Origin: Gammaproteobacteria bacterium
Lineage (GTDB): Bacteria; Pseudomonadota; Gammaproteobacteria; Xanthomonadales; SZUA-36
Direction: 5' to 3'
DNA length: 64,000 bases
Assembly: GCA_021772935.1 (NCBI GenBank)
Contig: JAJFLA010000026.1
Location: 62,001-126,000, forward strand
Part shown: in pieces, positions 2,758-56,194 of the stretch
Layout of the letters: every line of letters begins with the position of its first letter
Position numbering within the stretch: the first letter of the stretch is position 1
Program-made: the position numbers and the translations under genes
Notes under the pieces: model-generated
What the model saw: only the letters and a program-made list of their open reading frames with translations
Told to the model about the DNA's origin: nothing
Databases searched by the model: none

Positions 2758-5700
2758 TTACTGACGCTTCAAGCTGTCTGCATGCCTGAGTGTAAATACA
2801 CCCAAACCACCCAGCATCAACAACATCAGCAGCAAACCTGCTGGCCCCAATGTTGGAATTCGCGCGCCACAGCCAAGCTCAGATGCAAGGTCACTCACAG
2901 TGCTTTCGGTCGGGCAGCCGTCTACATCATCACCAACGCCATCACCATCAAAGTCGGTCATCAAAAATAACACCAGACCGTCATGATCCGATGACCGTAC
3001 GGCTGTGGAAGAATCGTTAATCTGATCGTGTCCGGCATCGGCGTTTCCACGACCAAATTGCAAACCCCTGAACCACGGATTTACAGACTGCGACGTCAAA
3101 GCATGATCCAGTGCTTGCGCATTGCCCTCGAAGACGAATGAATATCGCTCAGCGGCTGCAAGTAAATCTACCTGGTTGGTAAGATTCGGGCTGACCAGGT
3201 CTGTACCGGATCTAAGGCTCTCTGCCGGGTTGAAATCACCCTTAATATGGCCAACTGCATCGGCAAAACCATCGGTGAATTCGAAGGCATTGAAATCACC
3301 GACCACGATCAATGGTGTGTTCGGGTTATTACCCTGGAAGGTCTGCACCTTTGCAGCAATTGATTCGGCCTGCGCCAGGCGCTTGAGCTGAACCCTTTCG
3401 GTCTCGATACCATTGAGTGATCGGTTATGCACAACCATAACAGCCAACGAGAAGCTTGCACCATTTCCCGTATAACGACCTTCCAGCAACAGCGGTGGAC
3501 GATCATGCAGTAAGGAACTATCGAAGCTGAATATCTCTGCTGCACCCAACTGGGTCACCGAATCGACACTGATATCGCTACGAACCATAAAACCAACGTC
3601 AATACCACCGACGTCATTGCCTTCCACCAGGAAAGGTATGTATTGGACACTAACATCATCCGTTGCGATTTTATCCGCCAGACTCTGTAATGCGCCAATA
3701 TTGTCCACTTCCTGCACAGCCAAAATATCCGGAGACTTCAATACAGTCCGAATGTATTGGGAAAGCTTACTCAACCGGGTGGCAAAGTCACCATCAGTCG
3801 CAAACCTAAACAGGTTAAATGACCCCACCGTGGTTTCGCCATTCATCTTGCTGCGTACCGCTAGAGGCAGGGCCGCATTGCCAACAGACAGAGCCGTCGG
3901 CCAGATTTCATAATCTCCAAAATCGAAGCCGATCACACCACTGGCTGCAAAGCTGGAGCCTGCCGGAATGATGATATTGGGAAGCCCTAGCCTGTCAGGG
4001 TCCAGTTCAAATACTTCGGGATTTCCGTCCCATGTTGGAATAGAACCACCCAAGCCAGGGAAAATAACGCCGGGTTCCCGGAATGTGCGACTGCTGGCGG
4101 CGGTGACATGCACTTCGGCAACCAGGTCAGAAGAAAAATCCTGGTTTCCACCTGTAACTGTGCCATTTGCAATCTCCACCCGCATGCCTTCATAGCATTC
4201 GTACTCGATTACACAGCTCGGTATCGCTGGATTGTTACTGGGTACGCTTGCTCCCAGCGCGACTGCTGCTGGCAATGGATTGCCAGAGCTGTTGATCGTT
4301 ACTGTCGGGGTGTTGGTAAACTCGGTGAAATCAAAGAATTCATCCACCCGACCCAGCACATCGACATCGTCACCGACCGCCACCGTAGGTACGCCGACCG
4401 TAAAGACATAGATGCCATTAGAAGTATCAACCGAGGCATCAGCACGAGCATCGGGTGTCTGTATAAAGAAGCCCTCAGGGCCGACCGCCGTGACGATATT
4501 ACCAGCCGTCTGAACATCAAAACCATCATGTATGCTGGCGCTGCCGGCACCCTGAATTTCAAATATTTCCAATGCGCCACAACCGTTGATAGCGCCCGGC
4601 GTTGGTGGTGCCTGAGTATACACATCAGTATTTCGGGCACCGCCGAAGCCGTTGGGGCAACGCTGGTTAGAATCTGCAGAACTACCGGTTCCGCCACCTT
4701 CGTTGATCTGTGGCTGACCGGCGTTAAGTAAAACCAGCAATCCCGCATCGTCACTGTCATTAGTGTCATAGACCAGCGCATCCACCAGGTTGGCGGTTGA
4801 GATTGGCGTGTCGTTGGGGAAGTCCACGGCATCACCAAACACCAGCGCAACGGCATCGGCACCGTTTTGTAACAGATTAGTGTCCGGTGTCACATCCAGA
4901 TCGCAATTGGCAACGTTGGCGGCGTTTCCACACAGAACAAAATATCCGTCCGCATTGCTTGAGAACGTATCCAGATCGAATGCCAGGTAGGAAGCATCAT
5001 CTGAGCCGTTATAAAATACCAGGCTGTAGCCATCGAGTGGAAAATTACCAATACCGGGGGTAATCAATTCGATGAATTCCGCAGAGTCTGTTCCAGACTG
5101 ATCAGCATCAACTTCATTGATCAAAGGTAGGATGCAATTATTTACAGCACCCGGTGTGGGCACGCTCTGCGCGTAGCTTCCGGTGTTGCGACCACCACCT
5201 GAACCGTTTGGACAGCGTTGATTTGAATCGGCGCTACTACTACCACCGCCACTTTCGTTTATTTGTGGTTGACTAGCATTGAGCAGTACCAACAATCCCG
5301 CATCATCATTGTCATTGGTGTCATAGACAAGGGCGTCGATCAGAGCAGCCGCGGTCACAGATGTACCATTCGGGAAGCTACTGGCATCTGCCTGATATAA
5401 GGCTACTGCATCAGCGCCGTTTTGTACCAAATTAGTCGCACTGCCAATATCCACATCACAATTTGTAACACTGCCCAAATCACCACACAAAACCAGATAA
5501 CCATCTGCATTGGTAGTCTGGCCATCAAGGTCAAATGCCAGGTACGAAGTATCAGATGAACCGTTGAACAGAACAACAACCAGCCCATCCAGCGCCGTGC
5601 TACCACTACCACCATCAAAAAGCTCGATGAATTCGGCAGCGTCTGTTCCGGATTGATCAGCATCAACTTCGTTGATCAGCATGGGTGAAACTATAGGTGG

Positions 5701-6636
5701 GCCAGCCGTGGTGAAACTGAACTGGTGGTCAGATGCCATTGCATCGGGTGGGTCATCCGTGTCGGTGTCGGTAATTTGCGTAGCTGTGACTGTAACTGTA
5801 CAAATTTCACTCTGGTCAAAGTCTGCATTTGGATTCAAGGTATATACCTGCGGCCCACCCGTCTGCACCGCTGTATGTACACCACTACTGGCACAACTTA
5901 TGGCAATCCAGGAACCCGTCGCGGTAACTGATTCACTAAAATTAATAACGATATCTGAATCCACTGGCACACCACCAGCGTTGTCCAATGGTGTCGTGCT
6001 CGCAACTGAAGGTGCTGTTTCAGGCACAGTGCAACTGTTGACCGCACCTGGTGTTCCCAGGTCACCATCTCCAAAGGCTGAAGTAGCAGTACACCAATTG
6101 CTGCCAACATTATTATCAAGTGCCGAATCCAACAGCGACATTGATGCGCCGTTTGGATCTGGAAAAGTTGCACCGTTATCCCATTCAACACGATCAATTT
6201 CAGTCAGACTCCCGTTCAATAACACCAGCTCATCTGAGCCATTGGAAAGGAAAAAACTACCACCATAACTATAATTGACCGTGGCGCCGCCATTGGTCAC
6301 ACTATTGGTATTATTACCCAACACCAGATAACCGCCAGCCGGAATATTTAACGGTCCACCGTTATTGATGAGATGGCTATCCGAACCATTATCCTTAATG
6401 GTCCAGCCATCGATATCGATGGCAGAACCTGTGGTGTTTGTGAGTTCAAACCATTCACCGCTACCGTCAGAAACAGCTGATGGATTCTGTAAAATTTCAT
6501 TGATCACAACCTGGGCCATGACCTGACCGGATAACACGATTAAAAACCCGGTTAAGATCAGGCTCAAGAGATTTTTTAGTGTCAGATTGTGGTTAGTACA
6601 CGTGGCCTTTTTTGCGCGGTAGAGTTGAGTCGTCAT
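2758..6636 (-). CDS. Surface protein with lamin-tail domains, endonuclease/exonuclease/phosphatase domain and IPTL-CTERM tail
   Basis: 1292 residues, preceded by GAGG at suitable spacing. Order of parts: signal segment to about residue 41; lamin-tail domain 1 (42-200); Ig-like Big_5-type domain (205-312); lamin-tail domains 2 (318-500) and 3 (504-686), which are near-duplicates sharing INEVDADQSGTD and ALVYDTND; an OB-like region of the YhcR type (688-920); and an endonuclease/exonuclease/phosphatase domain (936-1225). Visible catalytic residues of the last are N941, E976 (QEVDN), D1114 and N1116 (GDFNAF), and D1217/H1218 (SDHDG). A calcium-loop motif DFDGDGVGDDVDGCP follows (about 1228-1242). 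The tail IPTL (1260-1263), a hydrophobic stretch and basic residues match the IPTL-CTERM sorting signal. Likely an exported extracellular DNase or phosphodiesterase; the substrate is inferred. Confidence 0.88.
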   Translation of the reverse strand: MTTQLYRAKKATCTNHNLTLKNLLSLILTGFLIVLSGQVMAQVVINEILQNPSAVSDGSGEWFELTNTTGSAIDIDGWTIKDNGSDSHLINNGGPLNIPAGGYLVLGNNTNSVTNGGATVNYSYGGSFFLSNGSDELVLLNGSLTEIDRVEWDNGATFPDPNGASMSLLDSALDNNVGSNWCTATSAFGDGDLGTPGAVNSCTVPETAPSVASTTPLDNAGGVPVDSDIVINFSESVTATGSWIAISCASSGVHTAVQTGGPQVYTLNPNADFDQSEICTVTVTATQITDTDTDDPPDAMASDHQFSFTTAGPPIVSPMLINEVDADQSGTDAAEFIELFDGGSGSTALDGLVVVLFNGSSDTSYLAFDLDGQTTNADGYLVLCGDLGSVTNCDVDIGSATNLVQNGADAVALYQADASSFPNGTSVTAAALIDALVYDTNDNDDAGLLVLLNASQPQINESGGGSSSADSNQRCPNGSGGGRNTGSYAQSVPTPGAVNNCILPLINEVDADQSGTDSAEFIELITPGIGNFPLDGYSLVFYNGSDDASYLAFDLDTFSSNADGYFVLCGNAANVANCDLDVTPDTNLLQNGADAVALVFGDAVDFPNDTPISTANLVDALVYDTNDSDDAGLLVLLNAGQPQINEGGGTGSSADSNQRCPNGFGGARNTDVYTQAPPTPGAINGCGALEIFEIQGAGSASIHDGFDVQTAGNIVTAVGPEGFFIQTPDARADASVDTSNGIYVFTVGVPTVAVGDDVDVLGRVDEFFDFTEFTNTPTVTINSSGNPLPAAVALGASVPSNNPAIPSCVIEYECYEGMRVEIANGTVTGGNQDFSSDLVAEVHVTAASSRTFREPGVIFPGLGGSIPTWDGNPEVFELDPDRLGLPNIIIPAGSSFAASGVIGFDFGDYEIWPTALSVGNAALPLAVRSKMNGETTVGSFNLFRFATDGDFATRLSKLSQYIRTVLKSPDILAVQEVDNIGALQSLADKIATDDVSVQYIPFLVEGNDVGGIDVGFMVRSDISVDSVTQLGAAEIFSFDSSLLHDRPPLLLEGRYTGNGASFSLAVMVVHNRSLNGIETERVQLKRLAQAESIAAKVQTFQGNNPNTPLIVVGDFNAFEFTDGFADAVGHIKGDFNPAESLRSGTDLVSPNLTNQVDLLAAAERYSFVFEGNAQALDHALTSQSVNPWFRGLQFGRGNADAGHDQINDSSTAVRSSDHDGLVLFLMTDFDGDGVGDDVDGCPTESTVSDLASELGCGARIPTLGPAGLLLMLLMLGGLGVFTLRHADSLKRQ

Positions 6637-6935: not shown

Positions 6936-7643
6936 TTATGTGACTCTCTTGCGAAATAACAATTTATGACCACGTCGTTTGCGGAATTTGAAACCAGTGG
7001 ACCGGGCTATGCCTTTGATACCCCTGGCAGAGTTCCATTGGACCAAGTGAGCCAGGTCAGTGGGGTCATTGCGATAGAAACCGGCTTGGGTGAGGAACTG
7101 TTGGTCCTGGCTGCGATTCGGCAACCAGCTGAAGAGGCGGTTCATGTTGGCGAAATCGATCAGTACTTTTCCACCTGGGCGCAAAATACGATTGAATTCT
7201 TTAAAGTAATGATAGATGTCGTAAATATTCAGGTGAATAAAAACTGCCATCGAAATTATTGCATCAACAGAATGGCTCTTAACCGGTGATAGCTTACGAC
7301 TGGTGATTTGTTCAAAATGAATATTGTCCAAATTACCACATTCGCGTCGGGCAAATTCAAGATATGCAGGACTGATGTCACAAGCAATCACGTGCTTGGC
7401 GTACCTGGCAATCGCCGCCGTGCCGAAACCGCAGCCCGAGCCCAAGTCCAGAACCGTATCAGATGACTTGATGTTTGCCACCTTGATGAAGTTGCTAGCG
7501 TAACGGGACCGCTGCTCGCGAATTTCATCCAGATGCTCTTCTGGACGTTCACCAAATCGATCTCCAATCAAACTGGTTAGCATGCGGCGTGTGTCGCCAC
7601 CATCAAGATCAACCCAAGTCTGTTTGCTCATTTGCGAGATCAT
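6936..7643 (-). CDS. Class I SAM-dependent methyltransferase
   Basis: 235 residues (a second ATG at 7631 is possible). Motif I is clear (VLDLGSGCGFGTAAIARYA, about residues 65-83), followed by the acidic motif II (HVIACDISPAYLEFAR), a post-motif segment (DAIISMAVFIHL) and the LRPGGKVLIDF strand typical of the Methyltransf_11/25 group. The C-terminus is basic (RKRRGHKLLFRKR). The substrate cannot be read from sequence. It lies downstream of the two-gene cytochrome operon on the same strand, separated by about 135 bases carrying a long hairpin and a palindrome, so it may be independently controlled. Confidence 0.85.
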   Translation of the reverse strand: MISQMSKQTWVDLDGGDTRRMLTSLIGDRFGERPEEHLDEIREQRSRYASNFIKVANIKSSDTVLDLGSGCGFGTAAIARYAKHVIACDISPAYLEFARRECGNLDNIHFEQITSRKLSPVKSHSVDAIISMAVFIHLNIYDIYHYFKEFNRILRPGGKVLIDFANMNRLFSWLPNRSQDQQFLTQAGFYRNDPTDLAHLVQWNSARGIKGIARSTGFKFRKRRGHKLLFRKRVT

Positions 7644-7778: not shown

Positions 7779-10010
7779 TTACTTTGCTCCCAGTGAACGG
7801 ATGTAATCGACTACTGCAGCGATTTCTTCTTCACTCAATACGTTTTCCCAGGCAGGCATGCCTACACTTATCCGGCCACTTTTCACGGTCTGGATTACAG
7901 CTTCAGGACCGGTGAGTTGCACCAGGGAGTTGTTAACCAGCCTGGGCCCCTCATTACCTACACCCTTTGAGCCATGGCAAACGGCACAATTCGCGACGTA
8001 AATCTGCTCACCGGTCGTTGGTCGCTGCGTAATAACTTGTACATTTTTGCTTCGACCTCTTGCCTGATCAAGATCGAATTCGACCCTCGAGGCAAACACC
8101 GTATCAATACCGTAACGCCCATCGCCACCGCTCATAAATGGGATACCATCACCATCACTATCCATGTTTCCTGCTCGAACCTGTTCGATACTTTCACCGG
8201 TATAAATGTCTTCCGCCTGCATTAGACCGCTCGCGTCCACGCTTTGTACAAAGAATTTTTTAAATCTGTCCAACAGCTCGATATCTCCGTCGATCAGAAT
8301 AATTTCACGTAGTGCAGCCAGTGCTGCTGCGACATCGGTTGGGGTATAAGAAACGTGGCTATCTGCTGCCTTATTTCTGTACAACCATGTATTTTTATCC
8401 CAAAAATCACTATTCCAAACCTTACTGGTTTTGCGGGCAGCTTCCAGGTAAGCAGTATCATGACTGATCTCAAAAGCCGCCAATAAAGCCCGAATTGCAA
8501 AGGCCTGGCTAGTCATATCACGGTGCCCGTGGGGTGTGGCATTTGGCACTTCATATTGCTGAACATAAGAGCCATCATCAGCGGCAACACGCACCAGAAA
8601 ATCTGCCTGTCGACGAAGCAATGCTTCGGCACGTTGTTGTATTGATGGATCCAGGTCCATGGTTTTTACATAATTGGCAAGCGCAACCACGGCGGTGGAC
8701 AGGTCTGTCAGAGAAACCCTGGAGCCACTACCCCCTTTCGGTGTCCACTCAGAGACCAATACTCCCGCAACGCTATGCATCTTCTCTATATTCACGAACA
8801 TCGTGTTTGCCAGCCCTTGTGCAAGCAAAGCATATTTTTGTTCCATCACACTACCGTCGTAAGGCGTTTGATAACCAAATACCTGGTTCCAGTTATCTTG
8901 TTTACGCGGGTTTGAAAAATCGAAAAACTCCGTGGTCGCCCACAACCAGGAAGCCTGATCCCACAAGTGACTGCTTGAATCTTTTACTTTGAAATCATAT
9001 TGTCGGACGGGCAGATCACTCATGTATATCAGCGTAGGCTTTATTTCATGTGGCAGATAACGGAGCGTTGAATCTGACTGGTATCGAGTCGGATCAATAC
9101 CGGTCAGTTTGTTGGTTTCAGGATCATTAAAAAAGGCTGCTTTACCCAATAGCATTGAAGATACTGCTTCCAAGGTCAGAATCGAGCCTCGCAGGCCATC
9201 TTCTGCATTGTTGCCGAGGAAAATTTCCCCAGGAAAATCGTCGTCCATGTGATTACGACGCAAAAAGAATTTGGCCCACAACACTTTCTTTAACATGGCT
9301 TGCGCAACACCACCCATGTCGATGGTTTTGTCCATGCGCCCGTGACCCCAGCGCAATGACTCAAAATCAATTAGATAGTTTGGCCTGCCGTTGGCTGCGG
9401 CGGCGATATCAACAGGTCTGACCAGATGCGGGTCCGCTGCTCGAAACTCCACCATCAGTGGTACAGAATTTTCAAACTTCTGCGGCATACCGGAACGACT
9501 CAAATATGATGTAATGACATCGGTGAGCAATATGTCTTTATTTGAGACTGCAAGTTCACCCCGGTTTCTGCCAAATACATTGTGACGGGTTGCCGCCCGC
9601 GCTCGTAAATCCACGTAAGGACCATGGATCACACCTATACCCATCCTGCCTCGCGCAGTTGCTGACATGAGGTTGTAGCGGGAATACCAATAAGCCTCAA
9701 CATTGGTTAGAAAAGAGAACTGTAAATCATGAGCAATCGGCAGCTGTTTTTCACTCGCCCGCAAGAAAAACTCGGTGCCGGACAGGTAAATCTCATTGGC
9801 CAGATACATGGCTTCATTGGTGTTGAAACGACGATCTACAGCTACTCCGGTAACGCCACTTCGCAAGCTTGAAAGATCGACTTGTTCATTGGTTTGAACC
9901 ACACGCACGCGCCGACCGTCTGGTCTGGACACATAGTCAAATGCGGACACACTGTCAATCCAGCCCAACACAAGCAACAACAAAACAGTTAATCCCGAAC
10001 GGTAATTCAC
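7779..10010 (-). CDS. Large periplasmic protein with C-terminal cytochrome c domain
   Basis: 743 residues. A signal peptide ends at about residue 23 (VSA). Residues 24-650 form a long domain I do not recognise. Its middle and later parts (for example SLTDLSTAVVALANYV, MTSQAFAIRALLAAFEISHDTAYLEAARK, SYTPTDVAAALAALREI) have the paired-helix rhythm of alpha/alpha-toroid proteins. Residues 664-743 are a class I cytochrome c: haem-binding C675-A-V-C678-H679 and the probable axial Met718 (GMPAW). The start overlaps the stop of the preceding cytochrome-barrel gene by four bases, so the two are translated together. I infer that the large domain oxidises or binds a substrate and passes electrons to its haem; the substrate is unknown. 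Confidence 0.75.
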   Translation of the reverse strand: MNYRSGLTVLLLLVLGWIDSVSAFDYVSRPDGRRVRVVQTNEQVDLSSLRSGVTGVAVDRRFNTNEAMYLANEIYLSGTEFFLRASEKQLPIAHDLQFSFLTNVEAYWYSRYNLMSATARGRMGIGVIHGPYVDLRARAATRHNVFGRNRGELAVSNKDILLTDVITSYLSRSGMPQKFENSVPLMVEFRAADPHLVRPVDIAAAANGRPNYLIDFESLRWGHGRMDKTIDMGGVAQAMLKKVLWAKFFLRRNHMDDDFPGEIFLGNNAEDGLRGSILTLEAVSSMLLGKAAFFNDPETNKLTGIDPTRYQSDSTLRYLPHEIKPTLIYMSDLPVRQYDFKVKDSSSHLWDQASWLWATTEFFDFSNPRKQDNWNQVFGYQTPYDGSVMEQKYALLAQGLANTMFVNIEKMHSVAGVLVSEWTPKGGSGSRVSLTDLSTAVVALANYVKTMDLDPSIQQRAEALLRRQADFLVRVAADDGSYVQQYEVPNATPHGHRDMTSQAFAIRALLAAFEISHDTAYLEAARKTSKVWNSDFWDKNTWLYRNKAADSHVSYTPTDVAAALAALREIILIDGDIELLDRFKKFFVQSVDASGLMQAEDIYTGESIEQVRAGNMDSDGDGIPFMSGGDGRYGIDTVFASRVEFDLDQARGRSKNVQVITQRPTTGEQIYVANCAVCHGSKGVGNEGPRLVNNSLVQLTGPEAVIQTVKSGRISVGMPAWENVLSEEEIAAVVDYIRSLGAK

Positions 10011-11578
10011 GAGCCTTCTCCCTTACGGTACAAACCGGAAGCAAATGTGTATTGGAAATTCAACCTGATCACCGAAGAAGGTGACGGGCCCAAATCTGGT
10101 TTGCCGACCCGAAACAGCGCACTCAAGGTCAGACGAAAAAGCGGATTGGGTATCGCAATCAAACTAACACCTGCAAGCTGTGTCGCCCCACCGCTAAAAG
10201 AAGGACGGTTAACCGTCATTGGTGGCATCATCGGTGGCATGGTTGGCACCGCCATCAAGCCAGCATAAGAATCTTTTTGCTGATCGCTATACACGTATGA
10301 AAAATCAACCGACAAGCGATCTCCAATTAGTGGTTTCACCAGGCTTGCAAACACAGTCACCTTATCGCCAGGGTCCACACCCTTGTCTGCGGGTCTGAAT
10401 TCATACAAGCCACCCATATGTACCGATCCACGACCCATGAAGGAATTACCTTCAAAAACGCGGGTCGCAAACATGCCCAAGGAACCACCCAAGGTGCCCA
10501 GACCGGGTTGTAATGGTGCCGGCAAGCGGCCGTCATCAGAGAAGCGTCGGAAAGTGCCATCAGCACTACCGGCAATCGGCATTCCATTGCTATCAACAGC
10601 GGGCAATGGCAGCAGCATGTTCATTCCATTGATATTGACCGTTGTGCGTGGATTGAATCGCTCACTATTGGAGCCGTTGGGGAGCCGTAGTGCAGCCACA
10701 CCGGCAAAACTGAAGTGATGGTTTCCCTGGTCAAAGAACTTTTTCTTCAAAAACACCTGTACATCACCAAACTCCGATGTACTGCCGCTCGGAAATACTG
10801 AGACTGGATCAAGGAAACCGGGATTCAGTTGTTGATGCACACTGGAACTGATAAAGGGGACATTAACACGCAAGGTGTAATTATTATTCAGGCCCAAAAA
10901 GAAATCCAAATCGACAAAATTGCGTTCCAATTCAAAATCAACAAAACGCGCACCAATCTGATCTTGTCCGGCAACATCACCTTCGTCGATTGTTTTAAGC
11001 TCGCGAAAAGACATTGAGGAGCGCATTGCACCTGGCGGCAGAACAAAAGCCGACTGGGTAAACGCAGGCTCGTAGAGTGGCGGAATAAAACTTTGAATCT
11101 GATCCTGCAAATTAAAACGTTGCTCATCAACATATGAATCCTCGGTACCAAGCCGTAAAAATTCATTTTCAGGTGAGTCAGGGTTTAGTTCAGGGGTTGC
11201 AAAAGCTGGAGTAAATTCACTGACGATCTGGTTGTTGGTCGTTACCGGTCTTTCACCAGCGCGTTTGGATTCAAGAAAAAACACAAGTCGAGCACGTTCG
11301 TCATCGGTCAGGTGCATATTTGGCATCTGTGTGCCCGGTTTTACTGCCTCAGGGTCACGCAGCCATGTATACAACCACGCAGCGGTATAACGATCACCAA
11401 CTGTATCAAGTGATGGCCCGGCCTGACCGCCCTGACCATTGATCGAGTGGCAACTGTTGCAGGCTTTAGAAACGAACAGTTCTTGCCCCGACAATTCCGA
11501 TGCTTCTGCTATCACCCCAAATTGCAGTAGAACGATTAGAGCAATTAAACCGATCAAAAAATTATATCGGACTTTCAT
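10007..11578 (-). CDS. Cytochrome c domain joined to a predicted outer-membrane beta-barrel
   Basis: 523 residues; GGAGG precedes the ATG. A signal peptide ends near residue 27. Residues 30-106 are a monohaem cytochrome c: C40-N-S-C43-H44, with probable axial Met in GTQMPNM (85 or 88). After a linker, residues about 205-513 alternate polar and hydrophobic residues as in a barrel. They contain the pattern of the Phenol_MetA_deg/transporter family (DVQVFLKKKFF then FAGVAALRLPNGS) and end in an aromatic-rich strand (IRLNFQYTF), with a short hydrophilic tail. A single-chain haem-plus-porin recalls Cyc2 of iron oxidisers, but the haem domain is longer and the barrel differs. It leads a two-gene operon. 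Electron transfer across the outer membrane is inference. Confidence 0.75.
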   Translation of the reverse strand: MKVRYNFLIGLIALIVLLQFGVIAEASELSGQELFVSKACNSCHSINGQGGQAGPSLDTVGDRYTAAWLYTWLRDPEAVKPGTQMPNMHLTDDERARLVFFLESKRAGERPVTTNNQIVSEFTPAFATPELNPDSPENEFLRLGTEDSYVDEQRFNLQDQIQSFIPPLYEPAFTQSAFVLPPGAMRSSMSFRELKTIDEGDVAGQDQIGARFVDFELERNFVDLDFFLGLNNNYTLRVNVPFISSSVHQQLNPGFLDPVSVFPSGSTSEFGDVQVFLKKKFFDQGNHHFSFAGVAALRLPNGSNSERFNPRTTVNINGMNMLLPLPAVDSNGMPIAGSADGTFRRFSDDGRLPAPLQPGLGTLGGSLGMFATRVFEGNSFMGRGSVHMGGLYEFRPADKGVDPGDKVTVFASLVKPLIGDRLSVDFSYVYSDQQKDSYAGLMAVPTMPPMMPPMTVNRPSFSGGATQLAGVSLIAIPNPLFRLTLSALFRVGKPDLGPSPSSVIRLNFQYTFASGLYRKGEGS

Positions 11579-16100: not shown

Positions 16101-16281
16101 CGTGGTGGTTTGGCAACGTCTGTGGCAACGTCGGCGCAACATTATTCTTAACACATCGTTGATTGCCGTGGATGGTGTAATGGAAAGTGACGGTGAGGTG
16201 TATCACCTGATTGCCCGGCAGGTATATGATTTTGATGGCTTGATCAAAGGATTGAAAACACGTTCGCGGGATTTTTGCTGA
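13144..16281 (+). CDS. dnaE2: Error-prone DNA polymerase, DnaE2/ImuC
   Basis: 1045 residues from the ATG at 13144. It is the translesion paralogue of the replicative DNA polymerase III alpha subunit. The opening YAELVCTSNFTFLNGASHP is the DnaE2 form of the PHP domain start, unlike DnaE1. Further marks are GRGSAANSAVCYCLG, the catalytic PPDIDVDFEHERREEV, QHVGGFVIS, VAIVRPGPIQG, the MRRSMAAW-type segment and a C-terminal OB domain (TLEDETGYVNVVVW). The frame could extend back to ATGs at 13072 or 13033, but homology begins just after 13144. With that start no Shine-Dalgarno fits and the transcript may be leaderless. The usual partners imuA and imuB are not adjacent, so this copy stands alone under its own LexA box. 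Confidence 0.95.
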   Translation: MESSCKSNDYAELVCTSNFTFLNGASHPQELVARAAELGYCAIALTDECSLAGIVRAFEEARRCKQQGQAIELISGSLFRLENGSRLVLLAEDNTGYAQLCTLITRGRRNAPKGSYALPDSAFENKLDHCLALWLPDIQNNESEKNGFEDNLLSAHWLATHFPERSWLAVNLNLGPDDSSRLAQLIGIAEATGLPVTASGDVQMHTRSRRMLHDLLAAIRHGCSLPELGYRALPCGERHLRNRHRLGTLYRRELLDESVRIAQRCHFRLDQLCYRYPREVVPQGMSSAAHLRDLTEAGIRQRWPAGIKTKLRQQIEHELRLITSLSYESYFLTVHDIVQFARSQNILCQGRGSAANSAVCYCLGITEVDPARMNMLFERFISRERDEPPDIDVDFEHERREEVIQYIYRKYGRERAALAATVISYRPRSAIRDVGKALGFSPAQLDQLARNISWWDEPDRFAKRLAEQGLTANDLKVRQLLYLVQSLIGFPRHLSQHVGGFVISENTLASLVPVENASMANRTVIQWDKDDLETLGLLKVDCLALGMLSAIHRCLDLVNDFYSTDMGLADVPAEDTETYGMIQKADTIGVFQIESRAQMAMLPRLKPACFYDLVIEVAIVRPGPIQGNMVHPYLQRRRGLETVKYPSKALQKVLQRTLGVPIFQEQVMQIAMVAAGFSGSEADMLRRSMAAWARRGGMEHMRKRLLNGMLERGYQRNFAEQIFEQIKGFGEYGFPESHAASFALLVYVSAWLKCHHPAAFTCALLNSQPMGFYQPAQLVQDLRRHGVVVLPVDIRYSKWDCALEPCAKNTAQFRLGFRLLKGLGQQTAERITTARKSRLFTDTQDLCSRANLNRRELAALAEADTLRGIAGHRHRARWEVAATEKQADDLLWGITRKDDEVAIRPATENDKLQADYAATGLTLGRHPVALIRGVLRQRRVCTAQQLLHLNHGSHTRACGLITMRQRPMTANGTIFLTLEDETGYVNVVVWQRLWQRRRNIILNTSLIAVDGVMESDGEVYHLIARQVYDFDGLIKGLKTRSRDFC

Positions 16282-16310
16282 TTGGTTTGCATGTGAACTG
16301 CGGTTATAAT
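16282..16310 (+). promoter_or_regulatory. Sigma-70 type promoter of the tandem cytochrome genes
   Basis: TTGGTT (16282-16287), 17-base spacer and a perfect TATAAT (16305-16310). It starts one base after the imuC stop codon and 37 bases before the first cytochrome ATG. Confidence 0.7.
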
Positions 16311-16346
16311 CGCCCGCTACTAATATTTCCTACTGTGATCATTCAT

Positions 16347-16679
16347 ATGTACTTTCAAAAAAACTTACTTACTTTACTCTTGTGCCTCGTATCGATAAAT
16401 GTTTTTGCGGCTGGAGACTACGAAACTGGAAAGATAAAGGCTTACACCTGCACTGGCTGCCATGGAATTGTCGACTATAACAATACTTACCCGACTTACC
16501 ATGTTCCCCGTATCGGCGGACAAAACATGGAGTACCTGGTTATCGCATTGCAGGCCTTCAAGTCAGGGCAACGCAAACACAAGAATATGACGCTGCAGGT
16601 TGAGGCTCTTTCGGATCAGGATATCGAGGATATTGCGGTATACCTTGCTGCGCAAACGAATAACCCGGGTGCTGAATAA
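16347..16679 (+). CDS. Small class I cytochrome c (c553/c4-like), first of a tandem pair
   Basis: 110 residues from the ATG at 16347, chosen because it begins a clear signal peptide (YFQKNLLTLLLCLVSINVFA, cleaved after AA near residue 22); upstream in-frame codons overlap the promoter. Haem site CTGCH, then a loop with PRIGGQNMEYLVIALQAFKSGQR and the probable axial Met in KNMTLQ. This is the c553/c4 pattern of soluble periplasmic electron carriers. One base separates its stop from the next gene, so the two are cotranslated and together resemble a dihaem c4 made as two chains. It probably feeds a terminal oxidase. Confidence 0.88.
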   Translation: MYFQKNLLTLLLCLVSINVFAAGDYETGKIKAYTCTGCHGIVDYNNTYPTYHVPRIGGQNMEYLVIALQAFKSGQRKHKNMTLQVEALSDQDIEDIAVYLAAQTNNPGAE

Positions 16680-16680
16680 A

Positions 16681-17013
16681 ATGAATAAAATCCAAACTAC
16701 AGTAGCTGTCACCCTGCTTTCATTGATCCCTGGCATGGCACTATCTGCTGGCAACGCCACCGAAGGCTACAATAAATCTACGCTCTGCCATGCCTGTCAT
16801 GGCGCCACCGGAATGAGTACCCAAGCAATTTACCCCAAGCTGGGTGGGCAACAACAGGACTACCTGAGCAAAACATTGCGCGACTTTCGTGATGGGGATC
16901 GTCAGAACGCCATCATGAATGGGTTCTCAGCCAACCTCAGTGATGCAGACATCGAAGACATCGCAGCCTGGTATGCAAGCCAGCAAGGTCTCACTGAAAT
17001 CAAAGACAAATAA
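16681..17013 (+). CDS. Small class I cytochrome c (c553/c4-like), second of a tandem pair
   Basis: Also 110 residues. Signal peptide NKIQTTVAVTLLSLIPGMALSA, haem site CHACH, then YPKLGGQQQDYLSKTLRDFRDGDR and the probable axial Met in NAIMNGF. It aligns along its length with the preceding gene (shared P-K/R-x-GGQ and a terminal DIEDIAxYxA helix), so the pair arose by duplication. The ATG at 16681 follows the upstream stop by one base. Convergent with nfuA, from which 13 bases separate it. Confidence 0.88.
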   Translation: MNKIQTTVAVTLLSLIPGMALSAGNATEGYNKSTLCHACHGATGMSTQAIYPKLGGQQQDYLSKTLRDFRDGDRQNAIMNGFSANLSDADIEDIAAWYASQQGLTEIKDK

Positions 17014-54032: not shown

Positions 54033-54044
54033 ATTAACATAAAA

Positions 54045-54080
54045 AAGTCGCTTTCGCCCAGCCTTAAGCGGCTTTTTTTT
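54045..54080 (+). terminator. Terminator of tRNA-Pro
   Basis: Stem AAGTCGCTT/AAGCGGCTT (54045-54053, 54066-54074; one G-T pair) with a 12-base loop, running into eight T to 54080. Confidence 0.8.
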
Positions 54081-54129
54081 GTTGATTGGGCGGACCTCAT
54101 TGGAAATCACCCGTGATTCACAAATTCGC

Positions 54130-54295
54130 CAGGAGCGAATTTCGAACGACGAGCGTAGCGAGGAACCCATAGGGCGAGGCGCATGGAAGCGCCGAGTAAT
54201 TCTCGCCACCCCGACCAACAAGTGCAGTCGCAAAGCGACAAACCCCGCAGGGGCGAGCCTCATGGATGAGACGAGTAAATCTCGCCACATCTCAA
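54130..54295 (+). repeat. Two tandem 79-base structured repeats carrying the tRNA-Pro 3' end
   Basis: Unit 1 (about 54130-54209) and unit 2 (about 54210-54288) match at fixed 79-base offset: GGGCGAG (54172, 54251), CATGGA (54182, 54261), and CGAGTAATTCTCGCCAC (54193) against CGAGTAAATCTCGCCAC (54272). Between these words each unit has a small hairpin around ATGG: unit 1 GGCGC/GCGCC, unit 2 changed on both sides (a G-C pair becomes T-A). Unit 1 continues as an exact copy of the last 20 bases of tRNA-Pro, AATTCTCGCCACCCCGACCA (54013-54032 and 54198-54217). Unit 2 keeps only the first part. Confidence 0.75.
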
Positions 54296-54319
54296 GCTCG
54301 AAAGACCACAGACCTATCG

Positions 54320-56194
54320 CTACAGTCCCAATGCCGTTGCAATTTCATCCAAAACTCCGGGGTCTTCAATGGTTGCCGGCATTTTGTACTGCTTGCCATC
54401 GGCTATCTTTTGCATTGTGCCTCTGAGGATTTTGCCCGAACGGGTCTTTGGCAAGCGGGCCACGATATGGATATCTCTTGGTGTGGCAATTGGACCAACC
54501 TGAGACCGCACTGTCTCCATCAGATCTTTTCTTAATGCACTTTCATCGACAGTTGAACCACTGTTCAGCACCACGAAACCCAGCGGCATCTCCCCCTTGA
54601 GTTTATCCGCAACGCCTATGACTGCACATTCGGCGACATTGTAATTGGTGATCAGCGCCTCTTCCAATGCACCGGTCGACAGGCGGTGGCCAGCGACGTT
54701 GATCACATCATCAATACGACTCATGACCCACAGGTAGCCTTCTTCATCCATTACCCCGGCATCACCGGTCAGGTAATAGCCTTCAAAACGGGAAAGATAC
54801 GCGTCGAAATAGCGTTGTCGGTTGCCCCACAGGGTTGGCAAGTTGCCGGGTGGTAAGGGTAACTTGACCATGATGTTACCCGACTGGCCTCGCGGTACTT
54901 CCATACCCTCGTCATCAAGTACACGTATGTCATAACCCGGTACTGCCACCGTGGGTGACCCAGCCTTCACTTCGAGTTGCTCCACACCCATTGGATTGGC
55001 AGCCATTGGCCAACCACTCTCAGTTTGCCACCAGTGATCAATGACCGGAATACCAAGCTGATTTTCTGCCCAGTGCAAAGTATCAGGGTCACAACGCTCA
55101 CCGGCCAGAAACAGGGATTCCAGGCTGCTGATATCGTGACGTTTAAGCAATTCGCCCTTAGGGTCTTCGCGACGGATTGCCCGGAACGCTGTCGGGGCCG
55201 TAAACAGGCACTTGACCTTGTGTTGCTCGATCACACGCCAGAAAGCACTGGCGTCAGGTGTGCCCACCGGTTTGCCTTCATAAAGTATGGTCGTACAACC
55301 ATGAAGTAGCGGTGCATAAACAATATAGGAGTGTCCAACAACCCAGCCGATATCCGAAGCCGCCCAGTAAACGTCACCGGGCTGTACATTATAAATGTGC
55401 TTCATGCTCCACTTGAGTGCAACAGCGTGCCCGCCATTTGGGCGCACAACCCCTTTGGGCTCACCGGTAGTGCCAGAGGTATACAGGATATAAAGCGGAT
55501 CGGTCGCTGCAACAGGAACACAGTCCACCGCGTGGGCTGCGGCAACGGCATCCTGCCAGAGGATAGCCGAAGGGTGCAATTCCTCAATCGGTAACTGTGG
55601 TCGGGAAACAAGGATTCGCGTTAAACCTCCAGCACCGGCAAGCTCAAGTGCTTCATCAAGCAAGGGCAAATACGCAATTACCTTTTTACCTTCGATGCCG
55701 CAACTCGCACTGATGACGAGTTTTGGGTTCGCATCAGTCACCCGGGTAGCCAACTCCTTTGCGGCAAAGCCACCGAATACCACCGAATGAATTGCGCCAA
55801 TTCGGGCGCATGCCAGCATTGAAATGATGGCCTCCGGGATCATCGGCATGTAGATGATGACGCGATCACCTTTGGAAACACCGTTTCTTTGCAATACATT
55901 GGCAAAAATCGCCACCTCGTCCCGAAGCTCAGCATAACTGTACTTTCGAACCTGCCCTGTCACCGGGCTGTCATAAATTAATGCGGTCTGAAGAGCCCGG
56001 CCTTCGTTGCAATGTCGGTCAAGCGCGTTAAAGCAGGTGTTGATCTCACCACCTTGAAACCACTCATAATAAGGCGGCTCCGAGTCATCAAGTACCTTTT
56101 CCCAGGGTTTGATCCACTCCAGATCGGAGGCGCAATCAGCCCAAAATTCTTCCGGAGTATCCAATGAGCGTCGATAAAGTGTTTGGTAATCCAT
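54320..56194 (-). CDS. prpE: Propionyl-CoA synthetase
   Basis: 624 residues from the ATG at 56194 (GGTGG eight bases ahead). AMP-forming acyl-CoA synthetase; the sequence WFQGGEINTCFNALDRHCNEGRALQTALIYDSPVTG follows PrpE rather than Acs. AMP site YILYTSGTTGEPKGVV near residue 235, WWQTESGWPM near 390, YYLTGDAGVMDEEGYLWVMSR near 470, and the acetylatable catalytic Lys in KTRSGKILRGTM near 590. Activates propionate and probably other short acids to CoA thioesters. It is the last of the minus-strand genes that follow the DUF4212/symporter pair. The 102-base gap ahead suggests its own promoter. Confidence 0.9.
   Translation of the reverse strand: MDYQTLYRRSLDTPEEFWADCASDLEWIKPWEKVLDDSEPPYYEWFQGGEINTCFNALDRHCNEGRALQTALIYDSPVTGQVRKYSYAELRDEVAIFANVLQRNGVSKGDRVIIYMPMIPEAIISMLACARIGAIHSVVFGGFAAKELATRVTDANPKLVISASCGIEGKKVIAYLPLLDEALELAGAGGLTRILVSRPQLPIEELHPSAILWQDAVAAAHAVDCVPVAATDPLYILYTSGTTGEPKGVVRPNGGHAVALKWSMKHIYNVQPGDVYWAASDIGWVVGHSYIVYAPLLHGCTTILYEGKPVGTPDASAFWRVIEQHKVKCLFTAPTAFRAIRREDPKGELLKRHDISSLESLFLAGERCDPDTLHWAENQLGIPVIDHWWQTESGWPMAANPMGVEQLEVKAGSPTVAVPGYDIRVLDDEGMEVPRGQSGNIMVKLPLPPGNLPTLWGNRQRYFDAYLSRFEGYYLTGDAGVMDEEGYLWVMSRIDDVINVAGHRLSTGALEEALITNYNVAECAVIGVADKLKGEMPLGFVVLNSGSTVDESALRKDLMETVRSQVGPIATPRDIHIVARLPKTRSGKILRGTMQKIADGKQYKMPATIEDPGVLDEIATALGL

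Follow-up and report, generated by a model that had tools for sequence, protein, structure and literature searches.

A conserved gene pair encoding a cytochrome c with a predicted outer-membrane barrel and a partner with a predicted toroid and a second cytochrome domain

We analysed a stretch of 64,000 nucleotides, the window, from a Gammaproteobacteria bacterium (assembly GCA_021772935.1, contig JAJFLA010000026.1, positions 62,001 to 126,000); on our reading its gene content, too, is gammaproteobacterial. On its reverse strand two overlapping genes encode two haem proteins, termed P1 (product of 7779-10010) and P2 (product of 10007-11578). P2 joins a cytochrome c domain to a predicted outer-membrane barrel; P1 joins a large domain with a predicted (alpha/alpha)6-toroid fold to a C-terminal cytochrome c domain (Table 1). 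The open reading frames (ORFs), strands, coordinates and four-base overlap reported in a preliminary description of this DNA were recovered from the ORF listing. Both haem-binding sites named there were also found, and the Pfam cytochrome c models scored above their cut-offs. The motif is CNSCH at residues 40-44 of P2 (C40, C43, H44) and CAVCH at residues 675-679 of P1 (C675, C678, H679). The presumed distal ligands, Met85 of P2 and Met718 of P1, are invariant in the alignments of three orthologues. P1 and P2 contain two cysteines each, all of them within CxxCH, and for both proteins alike the motif arose by chance in none of 5000 residue shuffles. Both thus have the hallmarks of class-I cytochromes c, i.e. 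CxxCH and a conserved downstream methionine within a Pfam domain, the methionine being the presumptive ligand. A purine-rich stretch resembling a ribosome-binding site precedes the GTG of P1 (judged by eye). The GC content is 0.48 in both genes and 0.49 in the window, and that of third codon positions lies inside the range of ten other genes; by composition, therefore, the genes show no trace of a recent transfer. Promoter-like sites were fewer than in shuffles; terminator-like sites numbered 7 compared with 4.5 in shuffles (standard deviation 1.9).

Table 1. Features of the P2-P1 gene pair (window coordinates).
Feature	Position	Strand	Basis or remark
P2, cytochrome c + predicted outer-membrane barrel	10007..11578	-	523 amino acids, ATG start
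P2 signal peptide, Sec-type, residues 1-26	11501..11578	-	judged by eye
P2 cytochrome c domain, residues 31-104	11267..11488	-	PF00034, 44.6 bits (cut-off 21.3)
P2 conserved segment ahead of barrel, residues 141-184	11027..11158	-	alignment of five barrels
P2 predicted beta-barrel, residues 185-513	10040..11026	-	about 12 strands in low-confidence model
Overlap of P2 stop and P1 start, four bases GTGA	10007..10010	-	ORF coordinates and sequence
P1, toroid domain + cytochrome c	7779..10010	-	743 amino acids, GTG start
P1 signal peptide, Sec-type, residues 1-23	9942..10010	-	judged by eye
P1 predicted (alpha/alpha)6-toroid region, residues 88-647 (about 560 residues)	8070..9749	-	best fold match; hairpins of helices as in solved toroids
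P1 cytochrome c domain, residues 662-736	7803..8027	-	PF13442, 58.3 bits (cut-off 27)

The P1 and P2 genes are a real, conserved unit. A scan of genome contigs gave eight pattern matches, two of which encode relatives: L004, from a metagenome-assembled genome (MAG) titled Deltaproteobacteria OFTM159 (G657), and L005, from the Parvularculaceae MAG OFTM380 (G658). A scan of viral contigs gave no relative. In L004 and L005 the pair is intact, with order and strand as in the window. P1 is 65% identical to the window protein in L004 and 64% in L005, P2 58% and 57%, respectively. The genes overlap by 10 bases in L004 and are separated by 12 bases in L005. A barrel profile was run against six genomes and retrieved five copies from four of them, all five located directly upstream of a toroid-cytochrome gene; the remaining two genomes, G1067 and G698, have toroids without haem and yielded no barrel. 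The profile searches were confined to genomes in which a toroid had been found beforehand, which is a bias for linkage. Within the few genomes that hold the genes, co-occurrence bears out the earlier view of a two-gene unit. A methyltransferase-like gene (6936-7643) lies downstream of P1 on the same strand and, by reading, has no evident counterpart adjoining the L004 or L005 pair. In L005 a gene for a plastocyanin/azurin-like cupredoxin (5538-5999, reverse strand) is divergent from the pair.

In the groups to which the window belongs, the toroid domain is rare. Toroid-domain profiles matched one of 398 genomes of the phylum, the window's own, with nine genomes of the same order among the listed misses. 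Whole P1 matched three of 274 genomes of the class, two of them in the cytochrome domain only. In the class of G658 toroid matches were obtained in four of 289 genomes, two of these weak and DsbH-like; G710 and G662 (E-values 5e-6 and 8e-6) were judged by reading to be like DsbH/YyaL-type proteins and were set aside. The phylum of G657 gave matches in six of 188 genomes, three of these weak and partial (the weak partial matches G1013, G1012 and G1053, E 1e-10 to 2e-9, were left out of further analysis), and the class of G1099 in three of 90. This patchy distribution suggests transfer between lineages, although the base composition is native.

The C-terminal part of P2 likely resembles the 12-stranded outer-membrane channels of the COG4313 type. 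These are implicated in the uptake of hydrophobic molecules, carry an N-terminal segment in the lumen and have a conserved Pro-Thr-Gly (available part of PMC4493636). In P2 strands were predicted over about 330 residues, and the COG4313-type channel 4rl8 ranked second for the P2 model by Foldseek as well as by VIA-align. PF13557 (Phenol_MetA_deg) matched four of the five barrel homologues weakly (E up to 1, best 0.0013). P2 reached 13.9-14.8 bits and the best scorer of the five, L012, 19.1-20.7 bits, both below the gathering cut-off of 22 bits. At E 0.01 the window's genome (G000) had no PF13557 protein, and across eight other genomes L012 alone among the barrel copies appeared, below the cut-off. 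The Pro-Thr-Gly has a counterpart in the alignment of four of the five barrels; P2 has PNG. As in 4rl8, a segment precedes the first strand, and its motif FIPPL..PAFTQ.(S/A)FVLPPG (P2 residues 141-184) is common to all five barrels. By analogy with the COG4313 structure it is a candidate lumen plug. P2 differs from these channels by its Pfam score, its fused haem domain, a longer N-terminal segment and a redox partner. The structure models of both P1 and P2 are poor; that of P2, from a three-row alignment, had a pLDDT (predicted local distance difference test) of 37, and a closed barrel was not obtained. The barrel pattern of the preliminary description is backed by the Foldseek ranking, the weak PF13557 matches and the predicted strands. 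In a test for alternating hydrophobicity P2 had 11 sequence windows compared with 5.4 expected, a value reached by 5 of 500 shuffles. The other four barrels were not distinct (53, 71, 162 and 58 of 500 shuffles), and the helical domain of P1, used as a control, was also raised (25 of 500; second control, 265 of 500), so that this test was discarded. When the barrels were compared as profiles with four PF13557 proteins, the probability was 1.2% (0.2% with toroids as a control), and PDB profile searches with the barrels gave no convincing match.

The main domain of P1 had been described as unrecognised and partly of paired helices. Indeed, outside the haem domain no Pfam or NCBIfam family passed its cut-off (C5-epim_C, PF06662, scored 16.7-17.0 bits, cut-off 23.3). 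The fold is predicted to be an (alpha/alpha)6 toroid, with helical hairpins as in cellobiose 2-epimerase/AGE, GH76, GH88 and the DsbH-toroid YyaL. Unlike these, P1 scores with no family model over its cut-off in this region, carries a C-terminal cytochrome c and is linked to a barrel gene. The (alpha/alpha)6 toroid is a fold known for non-redox sugar chemistry. An alignment of ten toroid homologues has 35 identical positions; among the residues invariant in all ten are E73 (just before the region), E105, Y107, W245, H254, W357, D385, H412, E600, D619 and D621. This set could suit metal or acid-base chemistry.

Some toroids have no haem domain. They were found in 5 of 72,556 plasmid-set records, i.e. 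one Anoxybacillus plasmid and four Aeromonas records (one of chromosome size), at about 25% identity in alignments that span 94-97% of the query. Distant haem-less toroids are also present in G698, G1067 and G1138; a search for further relatives of the G698 toroid returned G698 alone, in an order that holds one genome. An unrooted tree of ten toroids separates five cytochrome-fused from five haem-less sequences (support 1.000) and sets the window, L004 and L005 apart from the rest (support 0.999). On the Anoxybacillus plasmid (L027, 7920-12018) the gene after the toroid codes for a dihaem beta-propeller protein with a CCP_MauG domain. In G698 (L019, 8779-15210) toroid, multihaem protein and FTR1 iron permease are in a row, the toroid two genes from FTR1, which hints at iron handling by part of the toroid family. 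On Aeromonas plasmids (L028 and L029, 6434-15938) two copies of ISAs12 on the same strand enclose the toroid gene, glgC and an EAL-domain gene, much as in a composite transposon. In L044 (5819-9307) a haem-less toroid stands beside a divergent gene which, by eye, reads like another outer-membrane protein. This suggests that the pairing of toroid and channel may predate the haems.

Haem is absent from the barrel in two of the five homologous units, L012 (G658) and L030 (G1099). G658 is also the genome of L005, and L012 is its second barrel. At L012 (6397-16839, one strand) the genes encode a bd-like oxidase subunit I (PF01654 above cut-off), a dihaem cytochrome, a trihaem EB_dh cytochrome, the barrel (504 amino acids, C-terminal Phe), the adjoining toroid-cytochrome (926 amino acids) and a dihaem cytochrome. 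To our knowledge this respiratory cluster has not been described. A comparison of the L012 barrel with plasmids gave no match. At L030 (7073-18296) a barrel ending in Phe and a toroid-cytochrome of 950 amino acids are followed by a 289-residue protein, two MauG/CCP-type dihaem proteins, a Rieske protein (TIGR02694 above cut-off) and a molybdenum (Mo) subunit (TIGR02693 above cut-off). With three plasmid-borne proteins the Mo subunit shares 51-54% identity, and no more than 30.7% with the remaining 22 of the 25 matches listed out of 41. The copy on an Azonexus plasmid has the gene order peroxidase, peroxidase, small, large, c-type cytochrome. Judged by these sequences the L030 set is Idr-like, because of the identity of its Mo subunit and because the Azonexus order matches the Idr set in the available part of PMC8692401.

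As the barrel is haem-less in two of five units, the best reading is that channel and toroid-cytochrome are the core and that the haem of the barrel is an add-on. The P2 haem domain resembles the free dihaem cytochromes which flank the L012 unit. From this likeness and the two haem-less barrels we infer that P2 of the window arose from a barrel which gained an electron carrier of its own.

How might such a pair work? Tentatively, and with slightly less than even confidence, we propose that P1 and P2 constitute a module for substrate oxidation at the outer membrane and in the periplasm, with a terminal acceptor which differs between hosts. The COG4313-like barrel of P2, its N-terminal segment probably in the lumen, would admit a small, perhaps amphipathic or saccharide-like molecule. 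This would be bound and oxidised in the periplasm within the cavity of the P1 toroid, by the invariant Glu/His/Asp set and possibly at a metal site. The electrons would pass to the C-terminal haem of P1, from there to the periplasmic haem of P2 or to a free cytochrome or cupredoxin, and finally to the acceptor of the respective host. Substrate entry, oxidation chemistry and direction of electron flow are what we infer; channel entry, toroid oxidation and haem exit together are the simplest account of all parts. Elsewhere in the window two overlapping small ORFs (16275-17013, forward strand; 134 and 137 amino acids) with one CxxCH each look like tandem monohaem cytochromes. They are possible electron acceptors, though unlinked to the pair. 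A 127-codon stop-to-stop frame with CTACH (54043-54423, forward strand) is probably due to chance.

The proposal can be carried further, to a version that we consider improbable. A toroid turned redox enzyme, with a metal or a Trp-derived cofactor, would then form, with c-haem and dedicated channel, an exchangeable electron-input unit for varied terminal acceptors, and such redox modules would be a class of their own at the outer membrane. Just as speculatively, these would be oxygen by way of the bd-like oxidase, iodate by way of the Idr-like enzyme, and the general cytochrome pool where the barrel has a haem. Bearing on a Trp-derived cofactor are the invariant W245 and W357 in the ten homologues and the MauG-like dihaem neighbours in Anoxybacillus and G1099.

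Other explanations were weighed against the substrate-oxidation module. P2 might be a metal oxidase in the manner of Cyc2. Metal ions, Fe(II) or others, would then pass into the pore and be oxidised at the P2 haem, with P1 as a mere relay. Cyc2 and Cyc572 are fused cytochrome-porins of iron oxidisers (available parts of PMC8406198 and PMC10654088). P2 shares the Cyc2 plan of a single N-terminal c-haem (CXXCH) fused to a barrel, predicted in P2, in one chain, and the G698 toroid near FTR1, beside its multihaem protein, also points towards iron. According to the available part of PMC8406198 Cyc2 has the signature AXPXFAR[Q/K][T/Y] upstream of CXXCH. A regular-expression scan for A.P.FAR[QK][TY] found it in none of 15 proteins. 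On this absence membership of P2 in Cyc2 was rejected, and the preliminary description had likewise set the pair apart. Further, PXL (P55-S-L57) starts 11 residues after H44 and not 4 as in Cyc2, the haem domain corresponds to a Pfam cytochrome c model over about 75 residues, and the barrel resembles 12-stranded channels; the count of about 12 predicted strands instead of 16 is a weak point as it comes from the model with pLDDT 37. A toroid-cytochrome partner adjoins every copy found. The sister barrels without haem imply that a haem is no essential oxidation site there, and the large toroid would stay unexplained. We therefore regard metal oxidation in this manner as rather unlikely.

About equally doubtful is a toroid without redox function. 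It would serve as a binding protein, hydrolase, epimerase, lyase or metal-binding protein for an imported molecule, and the haems would have a minor role such as sensing, cofactor maturation or peroxide handling. The fold class, i.e. sugar epimerases, GH76, GH88 and lyases, fits this, as do the five of ten tree homologues that have no cytochrome domain and the MauG-like neighbour in Anoxybacillus. On the other hand, the five toroids with a cytochrome domain form one group and are linked to the barrel. One haem bound covalently to the toroid and a second to the barrel suggest that the pair serves electron transfer.

The preliminary description had the fused barrel carry electrons through the outer membrane, and a chain with both haem and predicted outer-membrane barrel, next to a haem partner in the periplasm, does recall MtrCAB, MtoAB and PioAB. 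However, MtrCAB-type conduits use decahaem chains in 26-stranded barrels (available part of PMC8406198), whereas P1 and P2 have one CxxCH per chain, no decahaem wire and an apparently smaller barrel. It is unlikely that a single haem, on the periplasmic side and N-terminal to the barrel, bridges the membrane. Since two of five barrels are in addition haem-less, conduction through the barrel is unlikely as the core function, and an extracellular electron transfer conduit is a very unlikely reading.

Least probable is a part in iodine-oxyanion metabolism: the unit of G1099 stands immediately before an IdrABP1P2-like set with the Azonexus gene order, and G657, which has the pair, holds a TIGR02693-type Mo subunit on another contig, but at E 1e-30 neither the window's genome nor G658 has such an AioA/IdrA-type subunit, and the available part of the text on the IdrABP1P2 iodate reductase (PMC8692401) names four core genes and contains 'outer membrane' zero times. 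In the L004 genome (L049, 1-15000) the Mo subunit gene has upstream a very long ORF that by eye reads like a multicopper oxidase and downstream ORFs with two CxxCH.

The supposition of the preliminary description that no such system is known agreed with our searches of the open-access literature, by title and abstract and in full text, a scope outside which most subscription papers lie: no report on a cytochrome-barrel fusion other than Cyc2/Cyc572, or on a toroid-cytochrome, described this pair. The pair is real and conserved, has no description in the literature searched, and is a variant among outer-membrane cytochrome-barrel systems. Fused cytochrome-porins of the Cyc2 type serve as candidate markers of iron oxidation. 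A second fusion, with another barrel and a toroid-cytochrome partner, is a warning that not all such fusions should be taken for iron oxidases. The fusion also brings to light a family of periplasmic haem proteins, for which we found no description, in distantly related bacteria; genes of the family stand next to one for a bd-like oxidase and next to one for an iodate-reductase-like enzyme. Should the toroid indeed be a redox enzyme, this would be new chemistry for the fold.

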